Part shown: piece after piece, positions 24,243-30,506 of the stretch
Position numbering within the stretch: the first letter of the stretch is position 1
Layout: each line of letters begins with the position of its first letter
DNA from: Anaerolineae bacterium
GTDB taxonomy: Bacteria; Chloroflexota; Anaerolineae; Aggregatilineales; Phototrophicaceae
Length of the DNA stretch: 35,947 nt
Assembly (NCBI GenBank): GCA_026645745.1
Contig: JAPKMU010000005.1
Location: 1 to 35,947 of the forward strand
Direction: 5' to 3'
Notes under the pieces: generated by a model
Databases searched by the model: none
What the model saw: only the letters and a program-made list of their open reading frames with translations
Told to the model about the DNA's origin: nothing
Made by a program: the position numbers and the translations under genes

Positions 24243-24992
24243 ATGACGATCAAAGTTTTCCTCAGCTATAGTCATTCCGATACGGAGTTCGCGCACATAC
24301 TGGGCGAAGCCCTGCGCCGCGCCGACTATGCCGTGTTCCAGCCTGATGATGGCGACATGGCGTCACTCTGGTATCCCGACGAGAGGCGACTATGTATCGA
24401 ACAATCAGACGTCATGGTATGCATACTCAGTACACAGATTTATCATGCGGATTCGGCATGGCTGCGCGAAGAACTGCGCGAAGCTGAACATCTCCAAAAG
24501 CCGATCATTCCTGTCTTGATAGAACCGATTGAGTATCCGCGTGATGTGATAAGGTGCTGGCGTTCGATTAACTTTGTCCAAGAAGACTTTCGACAAGCCT
24601 TTCGTGCGCTCAAAGAACAAATCTATGCGGTTGCCAGCCCTCATGCGATAGCCATGCGAAGGATGATGCGCACACGCATAAAATCGCTTGAGATTGAAAC
24701 CTTCACAGACCCGCGACCGATTCGATTAGGTGCGCATATTCGAGAATGTCTTGTCAAACTGAGGATACCGCCGGATCGTTTTGCTTCTGTGCTTGCTGAA
24801 TTACTCAATATCAGTGAACGATTCGCGCAAGGGCTTCTAAAAGGGACATTTCCGATCACGGAACTGGATGAGGACTTTTTAGCTGCGTTGGCGGAAGCCG
24901 TTGGTGCCGACCCCGACGACCTGCGCGCGATCGTCAATGCCGATGTTGTCTATATTCCACCAGATTCGGGGCGCATTCAGCGCCCTGAATGA
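24243..24992 (+). CDS. TIR-domain protein with C-terminal helix-turn-helix
   Basis: The first 130 of 249 residues form a TIR domain. K-V-F-L-S-Y-S-H-S-D (4-13) is the box 1 motif, and S-T-Q-I-Y-H-A-D-S-A-W-L-R-E-E-L (63-78) holds the W-x2-E with Glu76, the position of the catalytic Glu of NAD-cleaving TIRs; P-I-I-P-V-L-I follows. The C-terminal part (about 165-240) reads like a lambda-repressor/XRE-type fold: F-A-S-V-L-A-E-L-L-N-I-S, F-A-Q-G-L-L-K-G and F-L-A-A-L-A-E-A-V-G-A-D-P-D-D-L. TIR proteins in bacteria often serve as NAD-depleting effectors or signal generators in antiviral defence. An HTH fusion suggests DNA binding or self-regulation. The gene follows the sigma-like gene by 21 bp. 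Whether it partners with the divergent ATPase is untested. Confidence 0.82.
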   Translation: MTIKVFLSYSHSDTEFAHILGEALRRADYAVFQPDDGDMASLWYPDERRLCIEQSDVMVCILSTQIYHADSAWLREELREAEHLQKPIIPVLIEPIEYPRDVIRCWRSINFVQEDFRQAFRALKEQIYAVASPHAIAMRRMMRTRIKSLEIETFTDPRPIRLGAHIRECLVKLRIPPDRFASVLAELLNISERFAQGLLKGTFPITELDEDFLAALAEAVGADPDDLRAIVNADVVYIPPDSGRIQRPE

Positions 24993-25063: not shown

Positions 25064-26341
25064 ATGTCTTTATATCGTCGTCCGATTCGGCTTGCAGCCC
25101 TGCTGCTGTGCTTATTGATCGCTGTTCCGCTGCAAGCCCAGACCCCTTCGCCAACCCCTGTGATTCACATTGTTGCGCCGGGGGAAAGTCTCGTCCGCAT
25201 TGCACAGCAGTACGGTGTCCGCTGGCAGGCAATCGCTGAAGCGAATGCGCTGACCGATATTAACCGTTTACTTGTTGGGCAGCGGTTGATCATCCCCCCG
25301 CCGTCTGATGCCACGCTGACCAGCACCTATACAGCATCTCCAACGCCTTCATTGACTGCGACCGGAACATCAGCGCCGCCAACCCTTACCCCGATCCCGG
25401 CACTCACCGAAACGCCGGTCGCGGCAAGCGGCGCGCTCGATATCGCAGCCACGATTCCACCGCCGCCGCCAATGCTCATCCCGGTTGGGACGATTGTGCT
25501 GAACACGCCCGTTACGCCGAGCCTGACGCCAACAATCACACCCACTTATACCGCGTCCCCGACGACGACACCGCCGCCGCCCTCCACCGTCAACGGATTG
25601 AACTTCGATCAATTCATCGTGATGGATGACGCGACTCGCGCGAATATCCGTGACATCTTCGTGCGCGGCATTGAACTTGCCCGCAATCCGCACGCCTTTT
25701 CAAAAGTGGGCGACAGCACCATCGAAAACCCATTTTTTATGACACGCTTCGACGGGACGGATTACAATCTCGGCGCGTATGCTTATCTTCAGCGGGTGAT
25801 CAACTTCTACGATGGCTCGTTCGAGCGGGACAGCGTAGCGGTATCGGTCGGACTGCATTCGTGGTCAGCGATTGATCCGATGTGGGGCGATCCGTATCAA
25901 TGCCCGTCGGGCGATTCACCGGTCGCGTGTGAAATCCGCTTGCACAACCCTAGTCTGATGTTCATCCGGCTGGGATCGAATGATCGCGGCGTGCCGGAGC
26001 TTTTCGAGCGGAGTCTGCGCTCCCTCGTTGAGTTGTGCATCCTCAATGGTGTGATCCCGATCATCGGTACGAAAGCGGATCGATTTGATGGTGCGCAAAA
26101 CACCAACAATGAGATCATGCGGCGGTTAGCGGCGGAATATCATGTGCCGCTGTGGGATTTTGATGTCCTCGCCGGAACAATTCCCGGACGCGGGTTACTC
26201 AGCGATGGCGTGCATATGACAACATTTTACCCCCATGACTGGCGCGATCCGGCAGCGCTGATGACAGGTCACGGCGTTCACAGCTTGACCGGCTTAATGA
26301 TGCTCGATGCAGTTCTGAACACACTGGGAATCACCCCATGA
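25064..26341 (+). CDS. Secreted LysM-SGNH hydrolase/acyltransferase-like protein
   Basis: The 425-residue protein has an N-terminal signal peptide (basic start, hydrophobic 8-24, ending around A-Q-A) and a LysM domain at about 34-77 (H-I-V-A-P-G-E-S-L to V-G-Q-R-L-I-I-P) that should bind peptidoglycan or a related glycan. A low-complexity Ser/Thr/Pro linker (about 80-185) leads to an SGNH/GDSL domain with Ser218 in V-G-D-S, L-G-S-N-D in the middle and the D-x2-H pair D381/H384. So it is a cell-wall-associated esterase or acyltransferase candidate. A close paralogue lies at 29129. The stop overlaps the next ORF by ATGA, which makes it part of the acylation operon. No good Shine-Dalgarno precedes ATG 25064; a -10-like TACAAT is at 25020-25025. 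Confidence 0.88.
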   Translation: MSLYRRPIRLAALLLCLLIAVPLQAQTPSPTPVIHIVAPGESLVRIAQQYGVRWQAIAEANALTDINRLLVGQRLIIPPPSDATLTSTYTASPTPSLTATGTSAPPTLTPIPALTETPVAASGALDIAATIPPPPPMLIPVGTIVLNTPVTPSLTPTITPTYTASPTTTPPPPSTVNGLNFDQFIVMDDATRANIRDIFVRGIELARNPHAFSKVGDSTIENPFFMTRFDGTDYNLGAYAYLQRVINFYDGSFERDSVAVSVGLHSWSAIDPMWGDPYQCPSGDSPVACEIRLHNPSLMFIRLGSNDRGVPELFERSLRSLVELCILNGVIPIIGTKADRFDGAQNTNNEIMRRLAAEYHVPLWDFDVLAGTIPGRGLLSDGVHMTTFYPHDWRDPAALMTGHGVHSLTGLMMLDAVLNTLGITP

Positions 26342-26454
26342 AGAAGTTGATCACCCGTGAAAATGTGTTTGCAGTGGCGCTCTGTTTCATCGTGATCGTC
26401 CTGATCATCGTGACGACGAGCAGCGCCCCACAGTGGATTTACGCCAACTTTTAG
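26338..26454 (+). CDS. DltX-like 38-residue membrane microprotein
   Basis: This short gene starts at an ATG overlapping the stop of the LysM-SGNH gene (ATGA) and ends 12 bp before the MBOAT start. Its product has a basic N-terminus, one strongly hydrophobic helix (about residues 10-26) and a short tail ending in A-P-Q-W-I-Y-A-N-F. The last six residues match the pattern of DltX, which ends in F-I-Y-N-E-F. In the Dlt pathway the tail Tyr of DltX has been reported to carry the acyl group from the MBOAT protein DltB to the SGNH protein DltD. The same gene order (microprotein beside MBOAT and SGNH genes) argues for the same role here, with Tyr35 as acyl acceptor. Size makes the call less certain, but coupling, helix and motif agree. 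Confidence 0.75.
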   Translation: MKKLITRENVFAVALCFIVIVLIIVTTSSAPQWIYANF

Positions 26455-26466
26455 GATTCATCGTCG

Positions 26467-27900
26467 ATGGAACTCTCGCATATCGCCGTATTTTGCGCGG
26501 CGGCGATCCCGTTCGCGTTCTTACCGCCGCGTGCGCGCGGTTGGTTGATCTTCATCCTCAGCGCACTGGCGATTTACTGGCTTCAGCCAACGTTGGATAT
26601 TCGCTGGCTCGATTACAGCCTGCCGACTGCTACGCTGGTTGTCACCGTGATCTGCTGGTGGATCACACGTGCGCCGGATCAAGCGCCAGCACCGCGCCAA
26701 AACACAGTCGCGCTCGTCGTGCTGATCGCGGTTGCACTGGTGCTCACCCTGCCCCGCTACATCGAAATTCCACCTGAACTCGAAATCACGTCGCGCCCGC
26801 CGCCTGTTGAGCAGGTCGCACTAGTGCTGGTGATCGCGTTGATCGCGGGCTTGGGGTTCGGGCGGCTGCCGCGCACCGTATCAATCCCGTTCGGCTTGAT
26901 CGGGCTGGTGATCGCGCTCGTCGTCCTCAAAACAGATGTCCTCGCGGCAGGTGTGGCAGGACTGCTCCGCACAGGAAGCGGACAAGACGTGACGTTAGCA
27001 AAAGCGCTTGACCTCGGTTGGCTCGGTTTTAGCTATGTCGCCTTCCGCTTGATTAGCACACTGCGCGACCGTCAAATGGGGATACTTCCTGCGCTTACGC
27101 TGCGCGAATACGTCACGTATGTGATCTTCTTCCCTGCATACACAGCGGGACCCATCGACCGCCCGGAAAAATTCATGCCGCAGTATCGCGGCGTCGAGAC
27201 GATCAATCCGCGTGACCCTCAGCGGATCACCGTCGCGGTCACGCGCATCGTAATTGGCATGATCAAGAAGTTTGCCATCGCGGACACGCTGGCATTGATC
27301 AGCTTGAGCGCAGTCAGCGCCGATCAAGCGGGATCGTCGCTGGCGCTGTGGGGAATGCTGTATGCGTATGCCTTCCGCATCTTCTTCGACTTCAGCGGCT
27401 ACACCGATATTGCGATTGGGATCGGCATTTTGTTCGGGATCACGCTGCCCGAAAACTTCGACCGCCCATATTCCAAGTCGAATATCGCGCAATTCTGGCA
27501 AAGCTGGCACGCCACCTTGAGCGCATGGGCGCGTAGTTATGTGTATTCCCCACTTTCGCGGCGGCTGATCAGCGGAAAGAAGCTCTCAAACGACGCGACG
27601 ATCCTTGTGTGTAACCTCGCTACCATGATCGTGATCGGCTTGTGGCATGGTGTGACGATTCCGTTCTTCGTGTGGGGCGTGTGGCACGCGCTTGGGCTAA
27701 CCGCTCATAAGCTGTGGAGTGATCGCACGCGCACATGGTATCGGGGGCTGCAAGAAAAACCGGAGCGGGCGCGTGTGTGGAAATTCGCGGGCATTCTGCT
27801 GACATTTCATTTTGTGGTGATCGGGTGGGTGTGGTTTGCCCTGCCAACAGCGGGGTTGGCGGCGCAGGTGATCGGGCGGCTTGTGGGGATCGGGTGGTAG
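26467..27900 (+). CDS. MBOAT-family membrane-bound O-acyltransferase (DltB/AlgI-like)
   Basis: The 477-residue protein is hydrophobic throughout, with about ten or more membrane segments. The MBOAT core is clear: F-F-D-F-S-G-Y-T-D-I-A-I-G, L-P-E-N-F-D-R-P-Y, F-W-Q-S-W-H-A-T-L-S-A-W and the catalytic-His motif I-G-L-W-H-G with His394. These enzymes pass an acyl group from a cytoplasmic donor through a membrane tunnel to an acceptor at the outer face; DltB uses D-alanyl-DltC and AlgI an acetyl donor. The donor here is unknown, and no DltA or DltC gene is nearby. It sits between a microprotein and an SGNH gene, 2 bp from the latter. The ribosome site is weak, so translation probably depends on the preceding gene. 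Confidence 0.92.
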   Translation: MELSHIAVFCAAAIPFAFLPPRARGWLIFILSALAIYWLQPTLDIRWLDYSLPTATLVVTVICWWITRAPDQAPAPRQNTVALVVLIAVALVLTLPRYIEIPPELEITSRPPPVEQVALVLVIALIAGLGFGRLPRTVSIPFGLIGLVIALVVLKTDVLAAGVAGLLRTGSGQDVTLAKALDLGWLGFSYVAFRLISTLRDRQMGILPALTLREYVTYVIFFPAYTAGPIDRPEKFMPQYRGVETINPRDPQRITVAVTRIVIGMIKKFAIADTLALISLSAVSADQAGSSLALWGMLYAYAFRIFFDFSGYTDIAIGIGILFGITLPENFDRPYSKSNIAQFWQSWHATLSAWARSYVYSPLSRRLISGKKLSNDATILVCNLATMIVIGLWHGVTIPFFVWGVWHALGLTAHKLWSDRTRTWYRGLQEKPERARVWKFAGILLTFHFVVIGWVWFALPTAGLAAQVIGRLVGIGW

Positions 27901-27902
27901 GC

Positions 27903-29054
27903 ATGTTTGCGACGATGAAAAGCTGGAAATGGCTGACGGGCGGCGCGTACACATGGGGTTTTATCGCCCGTGTGATCGTCAAGGCGGCGGTGCTGTTCGC
28001 TGTGATCAATGTCGTGTACGCCTTGCTTGACCCAATTCCGTTCTTGGGACGTTTGAGCCTATATAACCTCCTCGTACCGGGCAGGGAACGCTTACCCTAT
28101 GGTGAGTCCGCCGCGAGTAACAACCTGAGCCTGAGCAGCATCGAAGCGATGTTCGGTTCGCATGAGATTTCGCAGCCTAAGCCAGCGGACGAGTTCCGCT
28201 TGATCGTGATCGGTGATTCGTCCGTGTGGGGGATTCTGCTCGAAAATGCGGATACGCTCGCCGGACAAATTGACGCCCTCAACTTGACAATTGATGGGCG
28301 GCGCGTGAACGCCTACAACCTCGGACATCCGATTTTGTCCGTCACCAAAGACTTGATGATCCTCGATCAAGCCATGCACTACCAACCCGACGCGATCCTA
28401 TGGTCGGTCACGCTTGAAAGCCTCCCTTACCGCGATCAACTCACGCCGCCGCTGGTAGCGAACAACGCTCCCCGCGTGCGTGACCTAATCGCCCGGTTTG
28501 ATTTGCCCATCGACCCGAACGATCCGGCATTAATCGAGCGCACCTTCTGGGATCGAACCTTGATCGGGGATCGGCGCGCATTGGCAGATTGGTTTCGTCT
28601 GCAAATGCTCGGTTTCGCGTGGAGCGCCAGCGGGATCGATCAGGTCATCGGAGACTATACACCGCGCTCGAATGATTTCAGCACCGATCCATCTTGGAAT
28701 GCCTTCCCGGATGAAACGAACATTCCGGCTGACGCACTTGCATTTGATGTGATCGCGGCGGGGCATACACTCGCCGGGGATGTGCCAGTGCTGCTCGTCA
28801 ACGAACCGATCTATATCGCCGACGGCGAAAACAGCGACATCCGCTATAACGCATGGTATCCGCGTTGGGCATATGACCAATACCGAACGCTGCTCACGGA
28901 CGAAGCCGCCGCGAACGGCTGGCAGTGGATCGATTTATGGGATGCCATCGCGCCGGAGGAATTCACCGATAGTCCTGTCCATCTCACACCGTCGGGATCG
29001 CGTCAGTTAACCGAACGGATCGCGGCGGCGCTGCTTGAGCGTATCACGCGCTAA
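27903..29054 (+). CDS. Membrane-anchored SGNH protein (DltD/PatB-like partner of MBOAT)
   Basis: The 383-residue protein has an N-terminal anchor (about residues 17-41) and a large extracytoplasmic SGNH-like domain. L-I-V-I-G-D-S-S-V-W-G holds the nucleophile Ser106. Toward the C-terminus D356-S-P-V-H360 supplies the Asp/His, with three residues between them instead of the usual two. N-L-G-H-P and L-L-V-N-E-P may form the oxyanion blocks. In Dlt and alginate/peptidoglycan O-acetylation, such proteins receive the acyl group from the MBOAT side and place it on the polymer. ATG 27903 is used because it lies 2 bp after the MBOAT stop and starts the basic segment and anchor; the open frame further upstream overlaps the MBOAT gene and is not supported. 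Confidence 0.85.
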   Translation: MFATMKSWKWLTGGAYTWGFIARVIVKAAVLFAVINVVYALLDPIPFLGRLSLYNLLVPGRERLPYGESAASNNLSLSSIEAMFGSHEISQPKPADEFRLIVIGDSSVWGILLENADTLAGQIDALNLTIDGRRVNAYNLGHPILSVTKDLMILDQAMHYQPDAILWSVTLESLPYRDQLTPPLVANNAPRVRDLIARFDLPIDPNDPALIERTFWDRTLIGDRRALADWFRLQMLGFAWSASGIDQVIGDYTPRSNDFSTDPSWNAFPDETNIPADALAFDVIAAGHTLAGDVPVLLVNEPIYIADGENSDIRYNAWYPRWAYDQYRTLLTDEAAANGWQWIDLWDAIAPEEFTDSPVHLTPSGSRQLTERIAAALLERITR

Positions 29055-29128
29055 ACTTATCGAACCATCAAGGCATCGGTTCTTCTCTCTTTGTGGTTCA
29101 AAGGTTTTAAGGCTCTACGCGATTTTGG

Positions 29129-29998
29129 ATGATCAACAGAATGACTGCATTCACTCGTCTCTTGATTCTGCTGCCGATTATGCTGTCTTTGCATTTTCAG
29201 GGGATTCCGCTGCCGCAACCTGAAATCCGCCTACCCGATAACGTCCTCGAACATATCCGCGTAATCTATTGGGTTGGGAGGGGACTTGGCAACCGTGATG
29301 ATGTGTTCTCCAAAGTGGGCGACAGCATCACCGTTTCATACGACTTCATGGTGCCGTTCGGCGTCGGTGAGTATCAATTAGGGGCGCACTCCTACCTTGA
29401 TTGGATGATTGATGTTTTCGCCGCGACCAATGCCCGTGATGGCAATTCGTTCATTAATCGCTCGCTGGCGGCGGGGGTGGGCTGGACGGCATTCGGCGCA
29501 CTTGATCCTGAACGCGCCGACCCAGAATTCTGTAATGCGGGCGAACTGCCGCTGTTATGCGAGTATCGCTTAACCCGCCCCGCGTATGCGATCATCATGT
29601 TCGGGACGAACGACTCCGGTTTTGCCGATCTATCCGCCTTTGAATACAACCTTGAACGCATTGTCGCGCTCAGCATCCGCAGCGGGGTGATCCCGATTCT
29701 GAGCACCATCCCAAATCGCCCGCCCATCGCGGATCGGGTCGCACAATTCAACGATTCGATCCGCCAGATTGCAGATGAAGAAGCTGTCCCGCTGATCGAG
29801 TATGCCGCCGCTCTTGCCGACCTGCCGAATGAAGGCTTAAGCGATGATCTGGTGCACCCATCGCAGCCGCCGCGTGACGAAGCGACAGCCGGGAATCTGC
29901 GAACGCCGTATCTGCAATACGGCTACAACATGCGCAATCTAACCACGCTCGAAATGCTGTACGCGGTGCGATTTTACTTGACCACGCCCGACCAGTAA
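29129..29998 (+). CDS. Secreted SGNH/GDSL protein, paralogue of the LysM-SGNH protein
   Basis: The 289-residue protein has a signal peptide (hydrophobic about 8-22) and an SGNH domain: Ser66 in F-S-K-V-G-D-S-I, F-G-T-N-D-S-G in the middle and D240-L-V-H243. It aligns over its whole mature length with the C-terminal domain of the protein encoded at 25064 (shared F-S-K-V-G-D-S, Y-x-L-G-A-x-x-Y-L, G-T/S-N-D and I-R/N-x-G-V-I-P-I), but lacks the LysM and linker. So the cluster carries two related free hydrolase/transferase domains besides the anchored one. They might add or remove the acyl group on different glycans. The start could be ATG 29129 or 29141; neither has a strong ribosome site. A 74-bp gap separates it from the anchored SGNH gene. 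Confidence 0.85.
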   Translation: MINRMTAFTRLLILLPIMLSLHFQGIPLPQPEIRLPDNVLEHIRVIYWVGRGLGNRDDVFSKVGDSITVSYDFMVPFGVGEYQLGAHSYLDWMIDVFAATNARDGNSFINRSLAAGVGWTAFGALDPERADPEFCNAGELPLLCEYRLTRPAYAIIMFGTNDSGFADLSAFEYNLERIVALSIRSGVIPILSTIPNRPPIADRVAQFNDSIRQIADEEAVPLIEYAAALADLPNEGLSDDLVHPSQPPRDEATAGNLRTPYLQYGYNMRNLTTLEMLYAVRFYLTTPDQ

Positions 29999-30068: not shown

Positions 30069-30107
30069 TTGCATTTCATCTGGATAACCTAACAGGGAGA
30101 CATGCCC

Positions 30108-30506
30108 ATGATTCGACGTATCGTTGCGTTGAGCGCTTTCGCCTTCCTCCTCGCATCGTGTAGCTCTGACACAAACATGCCTTCCACAGGTGGCGATCCC
30201 GCCGCTGCGCAAGCCGTATTACGCTATCTTGAAGCCAAAGCCGCCGCAGATCGTGACGGTGTGCGCGCAGTGTTATGCAGCAGCATGGAGAGCCAACTTG
30301 ATATTGAGGCGCTTTCCTTAAGTGGGTTGAATGCACACCTTGAAGGCGCATCTTGCACCACCGACGCAGGCAGCACTACCGTTACGTGCACAGGCGTAAT
30401 CGTGGCGGAATACGGGACAGAAACGCGCGAACTGCCGCTTTCGCAGTACAACGTCGTTCAGGAAGATGGGGAGTGGCGCTGGTGCGGCGAAACCACCGCT
30501 CCTTAG
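30108..30506 (+). CDS. Small lipoprotein of unknown function
   Basis: This 132-residue protein starts with a lipoprotein signal: basic M-I-R-R, a hydrophobic stretch and the lipobox L-L-A-S-C, with the modified Cys at residue 18. The mature part is about 115 residues, with an A-A-A-Q-A-V-L-R-Y-L-E-A-K helix near the start and a beta-rich end containing E-D-G-E-W-R-W-C, a pattern seen in SnoaL/DUF4878-like lipoproteins. Several Cys (C-S-S-M, A-S-C-T-T, V-T-C-T-G, R-W-C-G) could form disulfides outside the cell. ATG 30108 is preferred to ATG 30102 because GGGAG sits 8 nt upstream. It lies 19 bp before mrpA and may share its transcript. No defined function. Confidence 0.75.
   Translation: MIRRIVALSAFAFLLASCSSDTNMPSTGGDPAAAQAVLRYLEAKAAADRDGVRAVLCSSMESQLDIEALSLSGLNAHLEGASCTTDAGSTTVTCTGVIVAEYGTETRELPLSQYNVVQEDGEWRWCGETTAP

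Follow-up and report, generated by a model that had tools for sequence, protein, structure and literature searches.

A candidate Dlt-like acyl-relay system with a separate DltX-type microprotein in Anaerolineae

In the Dlt system of Firmicutes (DltA, DltB, DltC, DltD and DltX), teichoic acids are D-alanylated with the help of an adenylating ligase, a carrier protein, an MBOAT protein that lacks a terminal motif (DltB), a separate one-helix microprotein ending in (F/W)xYxxF and an anchored SGNH protein. The same five elements were found in an Anaerolineae bacterium, in a system built around a 38-residue microprotein encoded in a DNA stretch of 35,947 nucleotides (assembly GCA_026645745.1, contig JAPKMU010000005.1, positions 1 to 35,947; hereafter the window). 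The Anaerolineae system differs from Dlt in its ligase, which is of the fatty acyl-AMP ligase (FAAL) type and not DltA, in its host class, and in its additional secreted SGNH proteins and small lipoprotein. The acyl-Tyr shuttle was reportedly defined by Schultz et al. 2023. As an intermediate it has been described for both DltX and PatA (PMC12148441); published work on DltX (PMC5541007) and DltB (PMC11035591) was also used for the analogy drawn here. In PatA-PatB, which is responsible for peptidoglycan O-acetylation, and in AlgI-type pairs, an MBOAT and an SGNH protein are likewise combined with an acyl-Tyr hexapeptide (FIYANF in NgPatA; PMC12148441). In these pairs acyl-CoA serves as donor and the motif is part of the MBOAT itself, fused to it through two additional transmembrane (TM) helices, whereas in the Anaerolineae system the motif is encoded by a gene of its own, with links to an acyl carrier protein (ACP) and a FAAL. 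According to a 2025 paper, MBOAT/SGNH pathways other than Dlt have neither a carrier protein nor a DltX-like microprotein (PMC12148441). No link between a FAAL and an MBOAT and no dlt-like system of Chloroflexota was found in the literature searched, though Schultz et al. 2023 may mention one.

The microprotein open reading frame (ORF) was confirmed in the window at 26338-26454 on the plus strand, where it runs from ATG to TAG and encodes 38 amino acids (MKKLITRENVFAVALCFIVIVLIIVTTSSAPQWIYANF). Its start codon and the TGA stop of the LysM-SGNH ORF (25064-26341) overlap in the tetranucleotide ATGA. A single hydrophobic helix is seen by hydropathy, followed by the C-terminal motif P-Q-W-I-Y-A-N-F with Tyr35, the putative acyl shuttle; judged from the basic residues at the N-terminus, the C-terminus is probably extracytoplasmic. 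An earlier note on this DNA had described a 38-codon ORF between an SGNH and an MBOAT gene, with the ATGA overlap, one helix and a WIYANF end, and all of these are present. Its assignment as a DltX-type microprotein was borne out by the size, topology and C-terminal motif. The WIYANF of the window is a minor variant, the consensus of the microprotein family being WIYQGF. At about 39 codons, the gene is of a size that cut-offs can miss.

The microprotein is a real, conserved gene under purifying selection. Loci of MBOAT homologues were fetched from related genomes independently of the microprotein, and in most of the best 30 homologous loci an ORF of 35-45 amino acids with the same tail was present just upstream of the MBOAT. 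In 31 distinct MBOAT-anchored copies, gathered with a pattern that permitted W or F before IY, the mean proportions of synonymous (pS) and nonsynonymous (pN) differences were 0.64 and 0.19, respectively; over the last eight codons they were 0.82 and 0.08. pN was below pS in 465/465 pairs of copies, and the two alternative frames were broken by stops in 28/31 and 16/31 copies. The conservation of the final motif among relatives, which the earlier note had asked for, was observed: P-x-W-I-Y-x-x-F, Tyr included, was invariant in all 31 copies. Residues invariant in a 30-copy alignment were Glu8, Asn9, Ala12, Pro31, Trp33, Ile34, Tyr35 and Phe38 (window numbering), and diverged copies carry FIYxGF. 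Conservation is argued here from the MBOAT-anchored loci only, because a count of 98/99 for WIYQGF is mostly circular, 80 loci having been retrieved with WIYQGF.

The microprotein profile gave 34 strong matches in 400 genomes of the phylum, all of them in the class of the window and most directly before the core MBOAT; one further match (E 9.7e-4) fell outside that class. A scan of 84,980 species genomes yielded 150 relatives, and nearly all of the best 80 of these 150 are named Chloroflexota or Anaerolineae, the others including two records of 'uncultured bacterium' and one labelled Bacteroidetes. The Bacteroidetes-labelled record (L190) holds a very Chloroflexota-like copy and is probably a misbinned contig. 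In another genome, a second, partial copy with an internal TAG stop (G023:C41:13995-14051) lies beside an intact one.

Co-occurrence of the microprotein with its candidate partners was scored in 101 related genomes and in the 400 phylum-wide genomes. With counts uncorrected for phylogeny, the microprotein and the core MBOAT occurred together in 62 of the 101 genomes (microprotein only in 4, MBOAT only in 1, neither in 34), and so did the microprotein and the ACP (microprotein only in 4, ACP only in 6, neither in 29). Phylum-wide, the microprotein and the ACP were found together in 33 genomes, each alone in 1 and neither in 365. Gene order was followed in 75 de-duplicated microprotein loci, each with at least 5 kb downstream. 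The MBOAT was present in 69 of them, the anchored SGNH in 59, the ACP in 47, the FAAL in 46 and all four in 39, and the usual order was MBOAT > anchored SGNH (> SGNH) > ACP > FAAL. Several genomes have the microprotein directly behind the ligase gene and the MBOAT elsewhere. Such FAAL-microprotein pairs stand directly before HypA-, HypB- and HypF-like genes (hydrogenase maturation) in L125, L136, L139, L142 and L151, with no MBOAT nearby.

The earlier note had taken the MBOAT, the microprotein, the anchored SGNH and the wall-bound SGNH as the core. That the microprotein is paired with an anchored SGNH and a DltB-like MBOAT, and that the genome has no dlt genes, is supported; the core itself has to be redrawn, the conserved partners being instead the MBOAT, the anchored SGNH, the ACP and the FAAL-type ligase. 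The core is a ligase, a carrier, an MBOAT, a microprotein and an SGNH protein, a parallel of DltA/C/B/X/D, but judged by family models it is not Dlt. The wall-bound or secreted SGNH proteins are variable accessories outside the conserved core.

The DltB-like MBOAT of the window (26467-27900, plus strand, 477 amino acids; Pfam MBOAT 8.5e-28) has no fused motif at its C-terminus. It is homologous to DltB by the TIGR04091 model (221 bits, E 2.6e-65), under the cut-off of 375, and it matches the PDB DltB 6bug (5.8e-48). Its predicted structure is nearest to DltB (Z 28.5; next family 22.4). His348 and His394 (H391 and H437 in fused numbering) are invariant in 64 sequences and correspond in alignment to the WH residues in DltB. 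A tree of the conserved region separates the microprotein-type MBOATs, together with DltB, from the fused-motif MBOATs with a support of 0.969, the placement of DltB itself being weak (0.216). The microprotein and the MBOAT are in frame with a single stop between them in 67 records (duplicates included), which is probably a matter of spacing. Read-through of the microprotein into the MBOAT was considered and rejected: all three stops are in use (TAA, TAG and TGA), the two genes are not in frame in other loci, and the motif has to stand at the end of the protein.

The motif is carried in more than one way. Core MBOATs do not have it at their termini (one spurious match in 88), whereas DFIYFQF, DFIYVQF or VLYAKF forms the end of other MBOATs encoded in the same genomes. 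MBOATs with fused DFIYFQF or DFIYVQF tails are found a few kb from the microprotein system in two loci (L098:519-4367 and L108:2482-3924). In a third arrangement, seen in related Chloroflexota (L198-L201), an MBOAT with a fused APFVYQGF, TPFIYQGF or APFVYGGF is followed directly downstream by the same ACP, and in L200 by the FAAL too. These MBOATs share with the core system the ACP family and the motif, but carry the motif (FVYQGF/FIYQGF) at their own C-terminus and form a separate clade. Since a fused-motif MBOAT adjoins the same ACP, ACP-linked systems have the motif in both forms, as a fusion and as a separate peptide. No published description of ACP-linked MBOATs with a fused tail (L198-L201) was found.

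The membrane-anchored SGNH protein (27903-29054, plus strand, 383 amino acids) is a predicted transferase with a DltD-like role. A TM segment lies at about residues 16-49, and the GDS nucleophile is Ser106, with His360 as the histidine; G104, D105, S106, D344 and H360 are invariant in 57 sequences. The predicted fold is confident (pLDDT 92) and is an SGNH fold that matches many SGNH proteins. DltD is among the longest fold alignments (276-281 residues, Z 13.3-13.7). The fold search was rejected as a pointer to DltD specifically, the Z scores being tied with many SGNH esterases. With a conserved MBOAT His and a partner SGNH in which Ser106 and His360 are invariant, the system is a candidate member of the broader class of MBOAT-SGNH acyl-shuttle pathways.

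In relatives, a carrier protein of 79-83 amino acids with a GG/GLxDSF phosphopantetheine site is encoded between the anchored SGNH and the ligase gene. The genome of the window has an ACP of 79 amino acids with its Ser in GGWVDSF (contig C255; L059:7322-7561), and this gene overlaps that of the ligase (G000:C255, L059:5625-7325, minus strand). The best NCBIfam models for the ligase were PRK07768 (355 bits, cut-off 572) and PRK09192 (352 bits, cut-off 600), and the best model for the ACP was an ornithine-lipid ACP. The best PDB matches of the L036 homologue of the ligase include the FAALs 3pbk and 5hm3. In both family models and solved structures, the ligase is closest to FAALs. The earlier note had considered the donor probably new, but something can be said of its identity: the prediction is an acyl-ACP that the FAAL would charge.

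It is likely that the system is a complete Dlt-like acyl-relay machine, different from Dlt, in which an acyl group passes from FAAL to ACP, MBOAT, Tyr35, anchored SGNH and surface polymer. Behind it stand, as observations, the conservation of the gene, the invariance of the motif, the co-occurrence counts, the order of the operon and the assignments to families. The analogy with DltX and PatA is the ground for the proposed ligase-ACP-MBOAT-Tyr35-Ser106-polymer route, of which we infer each chemical step, the identity of the acyl group and the acceptor. In the cytoplasm, the FAAL-type ligase would adenylate its substrate, a carboxylic acid that is probably fatty or hydroxy-fatty, and load the acyl group on the phosphopantetheine of its dedicated ACP. 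The MBOAT would accept the acyl group from acyl-ACP, move it through the membrane by way of His348/His394 and put it on Tyr35 in the extracytoplasmic WIYxxF tail of the microprotein. The tail would then swing to the anchored SGNH and hand the acyl group to Ser106, from which it would pass to a surface polymer. Both secreted SGNH proteins, the LysM-SGNH and the one at 29129-29998, could act as accessory esterases or second transferases.

Several observations weigh against this relay. The ACP-FAAL pair of the window's genome is on a different contig from the operon, and because of this it is linked to the operon by orthology only. Many microprotein loci have no ACP or FAAL within 5-8 kb, and the co-occurrence counts are uncorrected for phylogeny. 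No NCBIfam model was over its cut-off for the ligase (355 vs 572 bits) or the ACP (41 vs 130). The microprotein and the MBOAT were modelled as one chain, the single intervening TAG being read as Gly; the joined model has a mean pLDDT of 92, but its tail residues 35-41, whose placement at the MBOAT tunnel the earlier note had asked about, are under 50. In the anchored SGNH, the position three residues ahead of His360 is occupied by Ser instead of the usual Asp, which leaves the third catalytic residue uncertain: the invariant Asp344 may serve as the acid, or the triad may lack one.

As the ligase and the ACP score under these NCBIfam cut-offs, the acyl specificity is not fixed. An acyl-ACP relay that carries something other than a fatty acid, for instance a short-chain hydroxy acid or a carboxylic acid of some other kind, would fit an adenylating enzyme that matches FAAL models only under their cut-offs. 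We consider this rather unlikely, since most of the best matches, whether to a sequence model or to a solved structure, are to fatty acyl-AMP ligases or enzymes related to them. A fatty acyl group is the probable cargo. It is somewhat less probable still that the system is acyl-CoA-dependent and PatAB/AlgI-like, probably serving O-acetylation, with the motif merely split off and the ACP-FAAL pair a neighbour for other lipid chemistry. The WIYANF of the window is almost identical to the FIYANF of NgPatA (PMC12148441), the many loci with no ACP or FAAL nearby agree with such a system, and so does the ornithine-lipid ACP as top model. Against it, the ACP tracks the microprotein phylum-wide, MBOAT to FAAL is the usual gene order, FAAL-microprotein pairs persist without an MBOAT and fused-motif MBOATs also adjoin the same ACP.

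If the system were Dlt itself, D-alanylating a polymer of the teichoic-acid type but diverged beyond the reach of the models, that would explain why the five roles are identical and why no MBOAT of known function is closer than DltB. Such a reading is very improbable. Nothing in the genome scored over the cut-off of 560 bits for DltA (TIGR01734), the FAAL on C255 reaching 33.5 bits, and the best PDB matches, those of the L036 homologue, include FAALs. DltC (TIGR01688, cut-off 52 bits) had no match in the genome, the ACP scoring 17.3 bits; the DltX model (PF12459) left the microprotein unmatched, its best match of 12.2 bits being elsewhere; and no TagF-type gene (PF04464) was over cut-off in this assembly, which is 87% complete. 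Least credible of all is that the microprotein is a structural MBOAT subunit without a shuttle role, or an untranslated ORF: the tail is modelled with low confidence and the ORF is known from its sequence, but the purifying selection is strong, the Tyr is invariant and the motif is common to fused MBOATs in the same genomes.

With somewhat less assurance than the relay itself, we favour the reading that the DltX strategy has come into use independently a second time, with Anaerolineae exporting a fatty acyl group from a FAAL-loaded ACP via a DltB-like MBOAT and a microprotein Tyr to a surface polymer, the shuttle motif being separate or fused to an ACP-linked MBOAT. In contrast to the statement in PMC12148441, the Anaerolineae system appears, throughout the class, to combine a carrier and a microprotein with a ligase of another type. 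If so, the separate shuttle peptide would not be tied to D-alanine or teichoic acid, ACP-dependent acylation of a Chloroflexota envelope polymer would be predicted, and natural split and fused versions of one shuttle would be available for comparison.

Three further genes on the plus strand accompany the core in the window. The secreted LysM-SGNH/GDSL protein (25064-26341, 425 amino acids; Pfam LysM 1.1e-12, Lipase_GDSL_2 5e-5) may be an accessory esterase or transferase; related SGNH genes, an accessory family, are present in 41/75 of the de-duplicated loci. A second secreted SGNH/GDSL protein (29129-29998, 289 amino acids; Lipase_GDSL_2 1.5e-15) is also accessory, and its family recurs beside the system. 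A small lipoprotein (30102-30506, 134 amino acids) had no match in the Pfam search; elsewhere its family is often directly upstream of the microprotein (41/75 loci). Directly upstream of the operon lies a gene for a TIR-domain protein (24243-24992; Pfam TIR_2 9.9e-15), which is preceded by one for a 291-residue protein without a Pfam family. Between 10080 and 23151, genes that by eye resemble those for a primase, ParA/ParB and a large conjugation-type ATPase suggest a mobile element adjoining the operon.

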